Of a DNA stretch of 64,000 nt, positions 4,154 to 60,050 are shown piece by piece; the first letter of the stretch is position 1, and each line of letters opens with the position of its first letter. The notes beneath the pieces were generated by a model. It saw only the letters and a program-made list of their open reading frames with translations. It had not been told where the DNA came from and made no database searches. A program made the position numbers and the translations under genes. The stretch comes from Spinactinospora alkalitolerans (lineage in GTDB: Bacteria; Actinomycetota; Actinomycetes; Streptosporangiales; Streptosporangiaceae), in NCBI RefSeq assembly GCF_013408795.1, contig NZ_JACCCC010000001.1:4898001-4962000 (forward strand), in the 5' to 3' direction.

Positions 4154-4226
<73 letters not shown>

Positions 4227-4231
4227 CACGC

Positions 4232-6398: not shown

Positions 6399-6471
6399 GC
6401 GCCATTAGCTCAATTGGCAGAGCAGTTGACTCTTAATCAGCGGGTTTGGGGTTCGAGTCCCTGATGGCGCA
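6399..6471 (+). tRNA. tRNA-Lys (anticodon CTT), second copy
   Basis: The 73 nt are identical to the tRNA at 4154-4226 apart from a C-to-T change in the anticodon stem (GTTGA/TCAGC, giving one G-U pair). The anticodon loop CTCTTAA, T-loop TTCGAGT and acceptor stem GCGCCAT/ATGGCGC are unchanged. It is followed by its own hairpin terminator. Confidence 0.97.
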
Positions 6472-6491
6472 CCAGCATAGGAGTACGGAAG

Positions 6492-57198: not shown

Positions 57199-58782
57199 TC
57201 AGCAAGCCTCGGCGGTCTCCCACGGCCAGTGGGCGGCGCGGCCGGCCTCGATCAGCGGGATCATGCCGAACGCGGCGTCGGTCAGGCCGGCGAACGCGTG
57301 CCGGTTGCCCTCGCCCGAAGGGCCGTGGCCGCGCCGGTAACCCACCAGGTTCCAGGTGTACACCGGGACCTGCGGCGGGACGGCCGCGGTGGGGTCGGCG
57401 CCCCGCCGACCCGCCCACGCCTGCTCGTCGGTGACGATGACGACCCGGTCGTGCCCGCGGTAGTTGTCGCGGACCGCCTGGGCGGTGTTGGTGCCGCCCA
57501 GGCTGCCGAACCGCTCGACCACGCGCAGCACGGCCTCGCCTCCGCGCACGGCGACCGGCCGGTGGCCGGTGCCGAACTCCACGAGGTCGGCCTCCCGCGC
57601 GCGCAGCGCCAGCGCCGCGCCGAACACCGCGGCCGCGTCGGCCGAGGTCAGTTGGGACCGCGCCGACATCCGGCCGAACATCGACCCGGACCGGTCCACC
57701 AGGACCAGCGTGCGCCCCGGCAGCGCGGGCACGTTGGCCAGCGACGCCTGCAGCGCCCTCTCCAGCGCCGCGCCCCAGCGCAGCGACGGGGCGGCGCGGT
57801 GGGCGGCGAGGAACCGCATGGGCATCTGCCGCGACCGCGCGACCTCGGCCGGGTCGGCCAGCCGCGCGGCCACCGCCTCGGCGACCTCGTCGCCGACACC
57901 GGCCTCGTCGAAGTTGCGCAGGTTGCGCAGCCGGGCCGTGTAGCCCATGGACGGCAGCACCGTCTGCCACGCGGCCGCGTCCATCGGCCCCTGCAGCCAG
58001 CCGGCCAGCGCCTCCCACGTCATCGCGGCCCGACGCAGTACGTCGGCGGCGTCGGGGCGGTCCAGCACGGCGCGGCGCTCCGCAACGGGCAGCGCCATGA
58101 GGTCGGCGCGCGCCCGCAGCGTCGCCAGTCCGGCCGGGACCGGGTTGTCCCGGCCGTGCCGGCGGTCCAGGGCGTGCCGGAACAGCTCGCCCTGCCCACT
58201 GGTACCGGCCACCGGGTGGGTGAGGTCGATGACGTCGCCGAACCGGAAGGCGCGGGCGTCGGTGTCGTACTTCAGCAGCGCCCGCTCGGTGTAGAGCCGG
58301 GTCACCGCGTCGGCGATGCCGCGCTTGACCGGCTTGGGCACGGACCTGCCGTAGCGCCCGGTCCAGTAGGCCAGCGCCTCGCCGGGCTCGTCGGGCCGCA
58401 GCAGCACCGAGTCGACGAGCCGGCGGCTGCGGCCGTGCGCTCCGGCCGCCAGTCGCGCCCTGGCCGCCTCCAACGCTCCCACCAGGGACGCCGAGCGCAG
58501 CCCCGCCTCCCGCCGCAGCCAGCCCAGCAGGCCGGACAGCCAGTCGGGGTCGTCGACGGCGAGCCGGGCGACCAGGGCGCGGAACCGCTCGTCGCGCTCG
58601 TCGGCCGCCTCGTAGAAGGTCTGCTCGCCGACCATCTGGGCGACCGCCAGGACGAAGAGCTCGGAGCGGGGGTCGCGCAGATGGCCGGGCGCGCCCTCGT
58701 GGGTGCGTCCGGTGGCGACGCGCTCGGCGGTGACGGGTCCGGCGCCGACCGGGGTCGTGCCGGCCCGGTTGAACTTGGCCAT
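57199..58782 (-). CDS. rsr: TROVE-domain Ro60/Rsr RNA-binding protein
   Basis: The 527-residue protein is a bacterial Ro60 ortholog. It starts MAKFNRAGTTPVG. Residues ~20-350 form the HEAT-repeat TROVE ring (LRDPRSELFVLAVAQMVGEQTFYE, WLRREAGLRSASLVGALEAA, KRGIADAVTRLYTERALLKYD, TWEALAGWLQGPMDAAAWQTVLPSMGYTARLRNLRNF). Residues ~360-520 are a vWA domain with an intact MIDAS (LVDRSGSMFG and VIVTDEQAW). Ro60/Rsr binds Y RNAs and misfolded RNAs and can tether the exoribonuclease PNPase. AAGGAGG precedes ATG 58782. Four Y-RNA-like genes lie immediately upstream on the same strand. Confidence 0.93.
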   Translation of the reverse strand: MAKFNRAGTTPVGAGPVTAERVATGRTHEGAPGHLRDPRSELFVLAVAQMVGEQTFYEAADERDERFRALVARLAVDDPDWLSGLLGWLRREAGLRSASLVGALEAARARLAAGAHGRSRRLVDSVLLRPDEPGEALAYWTGRYGRSVPKPVKRGIADAVTRLYTERALLKYDTDARAFRFGDVIDLTHPVAGTSGQGELFRHALDRRHGRDNPVPAGLATLRARADLMALPVAERRAVLDRPDAADVLRRAAMTWEALAGWLQGPMDAAAWQTVLPSMGYTARLRNLRNFDEAGVGDEVAEAVAARLADPAEVARSRQMPMRFLAAHRAAPSLRWGAALERALQASLANVPALPGRTLVLVDRSGSMFGRMSARSQLTSADAAAVFGAALALRAREADLVEFGTGHRPVAVRGGEAVLRVVERFGSLGGTNTAQAVRDNYRGHDRVVIVTDEQAWAGRRGADPTAAVPPQVPVYTWNLVGYRRGHGPSGEGNRHAFAGLTDAAFGMIPLIEAGRAAHWPWETAEAC

Positions 58783-58842
58783 CGCGCACCTCCTTCATGG
58801 TGCCGGGAACGGGGCGGACACCGGGAGGGACCGCGAGCACGA

Positions 58843-59016
58843 GAAGAAGGGGCGCCCGAGGACGGGGGTCGGCGACGGAAATAACGCCCAGCGCTCTACA
58901 CGACCCGTGCTGTCCGCACCTGAGCCACACCGGATGCGAAATCCGGTGGCGGGACTCGAACCCGCGACCTCTGGGTCCCCAAGTATCCGTCACCTGCGCA
59001 CCGGGCGCCCTTCTTC
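58843..59016 (-). ncRNA. Y-RNA-like (YrlA type) RNA, A-type unit 2 with tRNA mimic
   Basis: Read leftward, bases 59016-59002 pair with 58858-58843 (15 bp with one bulged base, GAAGAAGGGCGCCCG). After an internal loop (GTGCGCA on the 5' side) a 9-bp stem 58994-58986 / 58879-58871 closes the RNA. Inside is a tRNA-like module in permuted order: T-arm GCGGG-TTCGAGT-CCCGC (58965-58949), acceptor-like 8-bp stem CACCGGAT/ATCCGGTG capped by TTCGC (58948-58928), and a D-arm GCTC..GAGC with an enlarged loop (58925-58893). Architecture and location beside the Ro60 gene match bacterial Y RNAs. About 174 nt; it ends 60 bp before the rsr start codon. Confidence 0.85.
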
Positions 59017-59026
59017 GGTTTTCGCG

Positions 59027-59133
59027 ATGCCGCTCCCGAGTTCGGATCGGCGACGGCCGTGCGGCCTCGAAGCCGTTTCCAAAGACCTCGGGGTCTGGGG
59101 AAGTAACCGTCGCCCGCGCACCGGGAGGTGCAC
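59027..59133 (-). ncRNA. Y-RNA-like RNA, B-type unit 2 (no D-arm)
   Basis: The outer stem pairs GTGC..CTCCCG (59133-59122) with CGGGAG..GCAT (59038-59027). The inner stem GGCGACGG / CCGTCGCC is perfect over 8 bp. The internal loop again has GTGCGCG on the 5' side and GATCCGAACT on the 3' side, like the other three units. The enclosed ~50 nt hold two hairpins (GACC-CCGA-GGTC, and CGGC-TTCGAG-GCCG resembling a T-arm) but no D-arm. A TACGGT -10 lies seven bases upstream of the predicted 5' end. Ten bases separate it from the A-type unit that follows. Confidence 0.72.
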
Positions 59134-59140
59134 GGCCCCC

Positions 59141-59178
59141 ACCGTAGAAGGGGGCCGCGGGGCGGCGCCACCGGTTTT
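59141..59178 (-). promoter_or_regulatory. Promoter of the second B-A Y-RNA pair
   Basis: On the reverse strand AAAACCGGTGG (59178-59168) is followed after exactly 21 bases by a -10 TACGGT (59146-59141), seven bases before the predicted RNA 5' end at 59133. The same two blocks at the same 21-base distance precede the first pair (59548-59511), so this is a duplicated promoter. Sequence between the blocks is not conserved. Confidence 0.6.
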
Positions 59179-59225
59179 TCCGGCGTACCGGTCCCGCTCG
59201 GAGAAAGGGCCCGGAAAAGGGCATG

Positions 59226-59373
59226 AAAAAGGACGCCCGAGGTCGAGATCGGCGGCGGAGACGTAGCGCTCTACCGAATTGAGCTACGCCCCCGAAGGGG
59301 CGACGGGACTCGAACCCGCAACATCTCATTTTTCAGGTGAAGTATCCGCTGCCTGCGCACCGGGCGCCCTTTT
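59226..59373 (-). ncRNA. Y-RNA-like (YrlA type) RNA, A-type unit 1 with near-complete permuted tRNA mimic
   Basis: The 5' end AAAAGGGCGCCCG (59373-59361) pairs over 13 bp (one G-U) with CGGGCGTCCTTTT (59239-59227). The RNA ends in a T-run, so the outer stem doubles as a terminator. After the conserved GTGCGCA / CTCGACCT internal loop, a stem GGCAGCGGA / TCCGCCGCC closes the RNA. Inside are a T-arm GCGGG-TTCGAGT-CCCGT (59319-59303), an acceptor stem CGCCCC-TTCG-GGGGCG joined by a UUCG tetraloop (59302-59287) and a D-arm GCTC-AATTCGGTA-GAGC (59284-59268). This is tRNA order rotated, as known for YrlA. About 148 nt. Confidence 0.87.
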
Positions 59374-59385
59374 CCGATTTCCGCG

Positions 59386-59504
59386 GTGCCGCTTCCGAGG
59401 TCGAGGCGACGACGGACATCCGCGACCGGTTCGCACCGGCCGCGTCATGGATTCGAACCACGTGAGTGCCAGAAGTAACCGTCGTCTGCGCACCGGAAGT
59501 GCAC
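59386..59504 (-). ncRNA. Y-RNA-like RNA, B-type unit 1 (T-arm plus capped stem, no D-arm)
   Basis: Outer stem GTGC..CTTCCG (59504-59494) / CGGAAG..GCAC (59397-59386); inner stem GACGACGG / CCGTCGTC perfect over 8 bp. The 5' internal loop GTGCGCA and 3' CTCGACCT are the same as in A-type unit 1. The enclosed segment has a T-arm CGTGG-TTCGAAT-CCATG followed by a 10-bp hairpin CGCGGCCGGT-GCGA-ACCGGTCGCG with a GNRA loop, and no D-arm. Predicted start at 59504, six bases after a TAGTGT -10. Twelve bases separate it from the A-type unit, so the two are probably co-transcribed. Confidence 0.75.
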
Positions 59505-59510
59505 GGCTCC

Positions 59511-59548
59511 ACACTAGAACGGAGCCCTATCGCTCCTCCACCGGTTTT
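59511..59548 (-). promoter_or_regulatory. Promoter of the first B-A Y-RNA pair
   Basis: AAAACCGGTGG (59548-59538) and the -10 TAGTGT (59516-59511) on the reverse strand are 21 bases apart, exactly as in the second pair. The predicted start is the first base of the RNA's outer stem (59504). Confidence 0.6.
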
Positions 59549-59602
59549 CGCGCCGGCGCAGGAGGTCGACGGGGACGCCGGGCCCGCGCGCCGCGTCGCG
59601 GC

Positions 59603-59797
59603 TCAGCGCGTCCGGCGCCCCCTGATCCCCCATACCAGCAGGCCTATGCCCGCCAGCAGGACGACCGGCCCGAGGACTCCCCACAGCCGCACCCCGGTCA
59701 TGGGGCTGCCCTGCAGGTGGCCCCATCCTTGGAGTCCCCATACTCCGCCGATCAGCACGAGCAGCGCGCCCAGCACGATCAGGGTCCAGCTCTTCAT
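59603..59797 (-). CDS. Small two-span membrane protein
   Basis: The 64-residue protein has two hydrophobic helices (LIVLGALLVLIGGVWGL and LWGVLGPVVLLAGIGLLVWGI) separated by a short loop and ends RGRRTR. Such proteins are common, uncharacterised and probably structural. The ATG at 59797 is preceded by GGAAGAG. It is upstream of the Y-RNA array on the same strand but not obviously part of it. Confidence 0.65.
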   Translation of the reverse strand: MKSWTLIVLGALLVLIGGVWGLQGWGHLQGSPMTGVRLWGVLGPVVLLAGIGLLVWGIRGRRTR

Positions 59798-59953
59798 CTC
59801 TTCCGCCTCTCACCGGCTCGTCCATGGGGAATTCGGAGCCGGCGGCCGGGCGGATGGGTCCGGCGCACGCGGTGCCCGGCCGCCTCGCGGAGCGGCCGGG
59901 CACCGGCGGGCCACGATCGGGGCGCTCATCGGGCTCTGCCGCCGAGATCGCGG

Positions 59954-60050
59954 GGCGAGGCGGACTTCCACGGCGCGGACCCGCTGCACCGCCGGCGGCT
60001 TGCGCGCACCGCGACAGCCGGCCCCCTGTGCACACCCGGTCGTCAGATAT
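59954..60050 (+). repeat. Dispersed ~90 bp repeat, copy B
   Basis: Beginning GCGAGGCGGACTTCCACGG, with CGGACCCGCTG and CGCGACAGCCGGCCCCCTGT, it is similar over most of its length to 54410-54500. It ends four bases before the stop codon of the converging pdxA-type gene, so each copy abuts the 3' end of a gene. Confidence 0.6.

Follow-up and report, generated by a model that had tools for sequence, protein, structure and literature searches.

The stretch of Spinactinospora alkalitolerans DNA considered here (the window; 64,000 nucleotides of contig NZ_JACCCC010000001.1) carries rsr, the gene of a Ro60 orthologue, together with an array of predicted Y RNA genes. A sequence-only reading of the locus had proposed four such genes beside rsr, ordered B-A-B-A, with the same promoter-like site ahead of each B-A pair. 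We built three covariance models from relatives only, R1 (48 long units with a T- and a D-arm), R2 (29 middle-sized units) and R3 (17 small units). With these models, the unit coordinates and both copies of AAAACCGGTGG-21-TANNNT, the proposed arrangement was confirmed at the level of sequence: four putative Y RNA genes lie on the minus strand in this order, upstream of rsr and behind two matching promoter-like sites. From upstream to downstream, the features are:

59511..59548, minus strand: promoter-like site 1, AAAACCGGTGG-21-TAGTGT, read from the sequence
59388..59503, minus strand: predicted Y RNA unit B1, with outer stem and loop, inner stem, T-arm and 10-bp hairpin, no D-arm (R2 74.1 bits, R1 55.2 bits)
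59230..59370, minus strand: predicted Y RNA unit A1, with a permuted tRNA-like domain, probably of the closed type described below (R1 132.9 bits, E 4.9e-31)
59141..59178, minus strand: promoter-like site 2, AAAACCGGTGG-21-TACGGT, read from the sequence
59029..59131, minus strand: predicted Y RNA unit B2, with outer stem and loop and inner stem (R2 62.8 bits, R1 45.7 bits, R3 48.2 bits)
58849..59011, minus strand: predicted Y RNA unit A2, with a tRNA-like domain of the YrlA (open) type and an enlarged D-loop (R1 96.5 bits)
57199..58782, minus strand: rsr, Ro60 orthologue of 527 amino acids, with a helical TROVE part and a vWA-like part containing DRSGS

Judging by its sequence and predicted structure, the gene at 57199-58782 is a real Ro60 (rsr) gene. 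Its product matches Pfam TROVE (48.2 bits, E 1.2e-12), and its profile finds solved Ro60/TROVE chains in the PDB (9kop, 2e-47; 2nvo, 1e-11; 1yvp, 4e-10). The AlphaFold (AF2) model (predicted local distance difference test 86, predicted template modelling score 0.84) has the TROVE ring and the vWA fold of a Ro60/TROVE protein, and ranks 1-13 of a Foldseek search with it were all Ro60/TROVE structures. Among named rsr genes, the one from Actinorugispora endophytica is closest, with 82% identity.

Each of the four units consists of an outer stem, a GGTGCG internal loop and an inner stem. B1 and A1 are separated by 17 nt, as are B2 and A2, the second promoter-like site lies inside the 98-nt gap between A1 and B2, and A2 ends 66 nt from rsr. 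Identity is 63% between B1 and B2, 63% between A1 and A2, and 47-55% across classes; the values within the two pairs are compatible with an old paralogy or with a duplicated B-A pair. All four window units are detected by R1 and likewise by R2 at E<=1e-6 (R2 also gives A1 69.8 and A2 45.4 bits), and R3 detects three at E<=1e-7 and A2 partly, at 0.018; a further R3 match at 59935-60002 (E 0.011) was taken for chance. Throughout the 6.68-Mb genome, R2 found only these four units at E<=1 (150 of 16417 first-look candidates scored), and R1 found them together with eight weaker places (150 of 9625 candidates scored). The best of the eight, at 40.6 bits, is the junction of two tandem tRNA-Gly genes (L112:406-592, genome positions 1814905-1815091), where the T-arm and acceptor of one gene precede the D-arm of the next; the permuted tRNA domain of Y RNAs may have arisen from such a junction. 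Elsewhere in the window, two tRNA-Lys(CTT) genes lie about 2.2 kb apart, at 4154-4227 and 6399-6474.

At the gathering threshold, Rfam calls no Y RNA in the window; the YrlA model (RF02553) recognises A1 (47.7 bits, model positions 24-84 only) and A2 (33 bits, model positions 1-114), both below its cut-off of 69, and gives no row for B1 or B2 at E<=10.

To place the array among its relatives, we used 80 actinobacterial rsr loci, the best 80 of 146, which together with the window make 81 upstream regions. A descriptor at threshold 20 reported 185 units in these regions; three dinucleotide shuffles gave 1-2 and the opposite strand 4. This descriptor merged or dropped units, and the counts below come from anchored and model-based approaches, with model hits at E<=0.001 merged; the sequences used for building the models match by construction. 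The 80 relatives hold 222 units, with none in 2 loci, one in 5, two in 25, three in 28, four in 17 and five in 3, so that units lie upstream of rsr in 78 of the 80; in one of the two unit-free loci (L077) the available upstream sequence is just 259 nt long. A simple motif rule assigns both a T- and a D-arm to 113 units (T+D units; some short ones are doubtful calls), a T-arm only to 47, only TTCGA to 7 and none of these to 55. At least two units occur in 73 loci; at least one of them is a T+D unit in 70 of the 73, and a T+D unit stands together with another kind in 67. The spacers between units have a median of 11 nt (128 of 144 are shorter than 30 nt), and most arrays therefore look like one transcript cut into pieces; 11 spacers measure at least 60 nt, long enough to accommodate an inner promoter. 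L086, L087 and probably L085 also have two promoter-like sites, each with its two units, and in L001 a second such site is followed by a degenerate unit (all partly by eye), so that the two-promoter layout recurs in a few near relatives. A looser promoter pattern, formulated after both window sites had been seen and counted as distinct, non-overlapping places, gave 19 sites in the last 800 nt of 17 of the 81 regions (dinucleotide shuffles: mean 0.25, maximum 2). As far as sequence comparison can tell, Y RNA arrays are common among actinobacterial relatives and the window array is not special; the idea that an alternating array of tRNA mimics and non-mimics would be unusual or undescribed is not supported, as the passages covered of a paper on Salmonella also describe an rsr-yrlBA arrangement (PMC7790460).

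A class-wide R1 search at E<=1e-12 gave a match in 27 of 246 genomes (12 candidates scored per genome). Among single loci, L104 (genome G056, C1:2939460-2943746) has two tandem rsr genes about 1.2 kb apart, and several other genomes have extra, more distant Ro60 matches. In G288:C1, long-unit matches at 6498586 and 7011382 (113 and 83 bits) lie far from the main one at 7920546 and are possibly Y RNA loci elsewhere in the chromosome. In L068, some 1.3 kb upstream of rsr, the opposite strand carries a small Y RNA-like unit (L068:2142-2218, minus), which was excluded from the unit count. Matches to Scr4115, a Streptomyces small RNA family, lie about 2.3 kb upstream of rsr in three loci (L037:509-620, L041:1044-1155 and L049:751-862, all minus).

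The comparison also bears on the stems, for which a lack of compensatory changes had been named in advance as a refutation. In 143 units from 73 regions, outer-stem positions 3-6 are paired in 142, 141, 141 and 133 units and show as many as six pair types, whereas shuffling the partners gives means of 122, 66, 95 and 64; the anchors of the outer stem were chosen independently of pairing. The inner stem forms on average 6.22 of its 7 pairs and never more than 5.48 after the mates are swapped, a modest covariation because its sequence is conserved. RNAalifold found compensatory changes in 21 of 33, 10 of 17 and 6 of 15 pairs in the three classes, and in its folds both GG and CG from the 5' loop pair with the 3' strand, bulges remaining. 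These results support selection on both stems, strongly for the outer and modestly for the inner one, and argue that the ends of the predicted RNAs pair in a long stem. All classes share a module made up of GGTGCG, the inner stem, TACTTC and a 3' strand with CTC at its end. TACTTC is invariant after the inner stem in the aligned units of three classes, including those without tRNA parts; since the unit finder demanded GGTGCG-like and TAC(T/C)T or TGC(T/C)T anchors, the invariance of both motifs is in part a product of selection by the finder and counts for correspondingly less. We presume that this outer stem/GGUGCG loop/inner stem/UACUU arrangement is the Ro60-binding module. Vertebrate Y RNAs (Y1, Y3, Y4 and Y5) are similar in that several per genome share one Ro60-binding stem, and their motif GGUCCGA/UUGACC resembles GGUGCG/UGAUCUC here, a resemblance only; they are not known to have a tRNA-like domain.

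What differs between the units is the part mounted on this module, and no two of the four window units appear alike in kind. The elements on which this rests are:

59446..59462, minus strand: T-arm of B1, CGTGG TTCGAAT CCATG, 5 bp, read from the sequence
59325..59341, minus strand: anticodon-arm-like hairpin of A1, TTCAC-CTGAAAA-ATGAG, 4 of 5 pairs, with a C.A mismatch beside the loop
59303..59319, minus strand: T-arm of A1, GCGGG TTCGAGT CCCGT, from the R1 alignment
59287..59302, minus strand: acceptor-like stem of A1, closed by TTCG, from the R1 alignment
59268..59284, minus strand: D-arm of A1, GCTC..GAGC with GG in the loop, from the R1 alignment
58971..58975, minus strand: 3' strand of the A2 anticodon stem, CCCAG; its partner in this open stem is CTGGG (58887-58891), which follows the D-arm (by eye)

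The B units had been taken for non-mimics, which B1 contradicts: it carries a 5-bp T-arm with the loop TTCGAAT, followed after one base by the 10-bp hairpin (by eye), and the division into A and B is therefore not one into mimics and non-mimics. An ARAGORN call of tRNA-Gly(TCC) at 59438-59524, over B1, was taken as false. In 48 T-only units, the window included, a hairpin of at least 6 bp stands directly after the T-arm in 26 (shuffles 1.4, maximum 6), one base later in 24 and two bases later in 9; B1 is outside the 26 because of its extra base. T-arm and hairpin of B1-type units together resemble a tRNA top half. In B2, neither the sequence nor the motif rule revealed an intact T-arm or D-arm.

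The A units may be assigned to two layouts, a distinction overlooked by the sequence-only reading. In the Rfam YrlA model, the anticodon stem is formed by the strands flanking the block of T-arm, acceptor and D-arm and runs into the Y stem. This open layout is recognised in A2 by eye and by the YrlA match over positions 1-114; the automated parse got A2 wrong (open 3/5) because of the D-loop insertion. A perfect open stem was found in 40 of the 97 T+D units that could be parsed (out of 115), compared with a mean of 9.3 and a maximum of 17 with strands swapped. A1 instead holds a separate anticodon-arm-like hairpin, which A2 lacks. The corresponding closed layout was assigned to 49 of the 97, A1 included, under a lenient definition (at least 4 of 5 pairs and U33). 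In this layout, TAC is followed by a stem of 5 bp that bears a 7-nt loop; after a variable region, usually 5 nt long, come the T-arm, an acceptor hairpin (mostly 7 pairs, where the count stops), two bases and the D-arm. Taken together, these parts seem to make up a complete, circularly permuted tRNA whose acceptor end is closed and whose chain is broken between D-arm and anticodon arm. Neither domain is present in B1 and B2.

The closed layout draws its support from the loops and from covariation. A perfect 5-bp stem with a 7-nt loop is present in 38 of the 115 T+D units (111 with a readable anchor; swapped strands: mean 10.4, maximum 19), and perfect stems at other loop lengths are few (one at 9, two at 10, six at 11, none at 4-6 and 8). 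U33, R37 and A38 each occur in 35 of these 38 hairpins. Among later-fetched loci, 14 of 29 are perfect at 7 nt, two at 4 nt, one at 5 nt and none at other lengths (swap mean 4.6, maximum 10), and all 14 have U33 and R37; part of these loci (L083-L111) were on hand when the idea of a closed layout arose and were unused for it, and because the filter took out nothing but identical cores, they may include close relatives of the first set. A stricter unit finder applied to the first loci showed the same trend (28 of 82 perfect, swap mean 8.5, maximum 17; U33 in 25 of 28). The rule that G36 goes with G37 was seen over 40 distinct arms (10, 2, 4 and 24; p 6e-5), and the loops of 17 of these 40 arms equal one of 27 tRNA loops of the window genome, for example CTGTTAA (Asn), CTCATAA (Met) and CTCTTAA (Lys), with control means of 5.1 and 6.9 and a maximum of 14. 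The A1 loop CTGAAAA is that of the genome's own tRNA-Phe(GAA); an origin of A1 from tRNA-Phe is not supported, as among the 27 own tRNA kinds it scores best to Gly(GCC) and Thr(TGT). On a MAFFT alignment, the hairpin reaches a covariation score of 0.215, a value attained in 0 of 500 shuffles and by no slid version (<=0.117). YrlA separates the two layouts as well: in eight chosen loci with both, the open unit is covered over positions 1-114 in all eight and the closed one over 24-84 only in five, the same split as between A2 and A1.

Several results weigh against a closed class. Both-side changes on the alignment are restricted to two of the five hairpin pairs, and three of the eight closed units just mentioned match YrlA over its full length. 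Among 47 lenient closed units, at least three hairpin pairs occur in the minimum-energy fold of 12 and the hairpin pair probability exceeds 0.5 in 15; taken in isolation, none of the 47 17-mers adopts an exact 5+7 fold (mean energy -2.0 kcal/mol, shuffled ones -0.9 kcal/mol). The A1 hairpin itself is weak, with 4 of 5 pairs and a best pair probability of 0.09 in the folded unit. Of the parsed T+D units, 17 of 97 fit neither layout, 7-9 fit both and several are misparsed. ARAGORN called 46 of 46 un-permuted closed units tRNA (14 of 46 in native order), and with the arm shuffled it still called 39-44 of 46, so that this test says nothing about the anticodon arm. As folding energy does not support the hairpin, the claim rests on loop statistics and covariation. 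On this evidence, we consider it likely that a closed class with a tRNA-like anticodon arm exists, and probable, with less assurance, that A1 itself belongs to it. The loci compared show the putative class to be widespread among relatives, with tRNA-like anticodon loops.

Certain parts of this system are already known from other bacteria in the literature passages covered, namely the yrlBA pair, tRNA mimicry and the location of Y RNA genes next to rsr. The Yrl RNAs of Salmonella and Mycobacterium smegmatis (YrlA, RF02553) likewise stand beside rsr and have inner stem, T-arm, acceptor hairpin and D-arm in permuted order, and A2 matches their model over its whole length. In contrast, the window units and those of the eight relatives checked stay below the 69-bit cut-off, and A1-type units hold the anticodon arm as a separate hairpin rather than feeding it into the Y stem. 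As in Deinococcus radiodurans, whose Y RNA is part of RYPER (Rsr-Y RNA-PNPase; PMC4726728, covered in part), the genome has genes for Rsr and PNPase and the units have a stem of the Rsr-binding kind; unlike there, the window has four units of several classes, to which a tether function would be assigned by analogy. The Salmonella rsr-yrlBA-rtcBA operon also joins Y RNA genes to rsr (PMC7790460, covered in part), whereas our genome encodes PNPase and RtcB with neither gene at the rsr locus. In the covered part of the same paper, tRNA mimicry by a Salmonella Y RNA is discussed as a possible inhibitor of an anticodon nuclease, and YrlA itself is uncut, not being a substrate of the enzyme; the closed units described here, unlike YrlA, carry an anticodon loop. 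The literature passages covered, which do not extend to the main bacterial Y RNA papers, contain no description of the closed layout. Chen's work of 2014 is said to have found at least one Y RNA with a tRNA-like domain per species.

From these results, a hypothesis regarding the locus may be put forward: it is probably a Ro60 (Rsr) locus at which four arrayed Y RNAs have one presumed Ro60-binding module in common and differ in the part mounted on it. Two transcripts, each of B followed by A across a 17-nt spacer, would start at the two like promoters; processing would then free the single RNAs, as happens with tRNA operons, and the second transcript would probably continue into rsr, 66 nt further on. 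Rsr would bind the shared module. A2 would mount a tRNA mimic of the YrlA type, its anticodon stem prolonged by the Y stem; A1 would mount a permuted, nearly complete tRNA whose anticodon loop is kept because the break falls between D-arm and anticodon arm; B1 would offer a T-arm with a hairpin beside it, and B2 would have lost its tRNA features. Rsr is described as binding the stem of Y RNA, Y RNA as tethering PNPase, and YrlA as modified by tRNA enzymes (PMC7790460, PMC8394870 and PMC4726728, each covered in part). By analogy, the tRNA-like parts would most likely recruit or occupy tRNA-acting proteins, such as PNPase tethered as in RYPER, modification enzymes, and anticodon-directed enzymes for the closed class, which would give a physical basis to competition with anticodon nuclease. 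It is plausible, as had been suggested at the outset, that different Y RNAs steer Ro60 to different partners. A role of the anticodon loop as a decoy or sensor is considered rather unlikely. The broader proposal is tentative, and we hold it to be unlikely as a whole: an actinobacterial Y RNA class that carries a complete permuted tRNA, with a selected anticodon arm and a drifting triplet, would be displayed on Ro60 and there deceive or sense the enzymes by which anticodon loops are read or cut, with YrlA-type mimics, T-arm/acceptor top-half mimics and mimic-free Y RNAs added in the arrays, equipping Ro60 with a range of tRNA parts.

Some observations at the locus speak against this reading. 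A strict sigma-70 scan of 58700-59700 gave no site, and a strict terminator scan of the window region gave nothing; folding of the four segments is weak evidence, with z from -1.3 to -2.4 (A2 without its outermost stem); and RtcB is encoded away from rsr. Of the sequence-only reading, then, the genes, their order, the promoter-like sites and the selected stems stand, and the unusualness and the mimic/non-mimic division do not.

According to the alternative that survives best, which we regard as somewhat unlikely, ordinary YrlA-type Y RNAs have been duplicated for dosage, and the anticodon-like hairpin is a decaying tRNA remnant without a role. The generality of arrays among relatives and the thermodynamic weakness of the hairpin are in its favour, as is the variation of the triplet between species, even within Actinomadura (CGG in L015, CAT in L043). 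A decaying remnant, however, would hardly keep exact 7-nt loops, compensatory stem changes, U33/R37/A38 and the 36/37 rule while its triplets change, nor does it fit the pairing of one closed with one open form in 13 of the 23 arrays with two parsed T+D units (the parses of L048 and L078 being doubtful). Unlikely, in our view, is an action in cis, with the units as folded elements of an rsr mRNA leader through which Rsr would control its own synthesis. The units do lie on the rsr strand, the last one ends a median of 51 nt before rsr (78 of the 80 loci), and the scan found no terminator-like site; yet several unit classes and an inner promoter-like site exceed the needs of a leader, and Y RNAs of other bacteria are described, in the covered part of PMC4726728, as small Rsr-bound RNAs. 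That tRNA-gene debris came to lie upstream of rsr by chance, as the ARAGORN call over B1 and the R1 match to the tandem tRNA-Gly junction might suggest, is scarcely credible and in the main refuted by conservation, given that 78 of 80 loci have the same module ahead of rsr, in units that contain tRNA parts and in units that lack them, and that its outer stem covaries strongly.

The preferred reading, of a Ro60 locus whose Y RNAs share a module and differ in the mounted part, addresses the question of what bacterial Y RNAs do beyond tethering PNPase to Rsr. The Rfam cut-off for YrlA misses units both in the window and in the eight relatives checked. The arrays naturally combine Y RNAs that have a given tRNA part with others that lack it, and could be used for a direct test. 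If the closed class keeps a selected anticodon loop while its triplet drifts, Ro60 particles may watch over tRNAs or shield them from anticodon-cutting enzymes.

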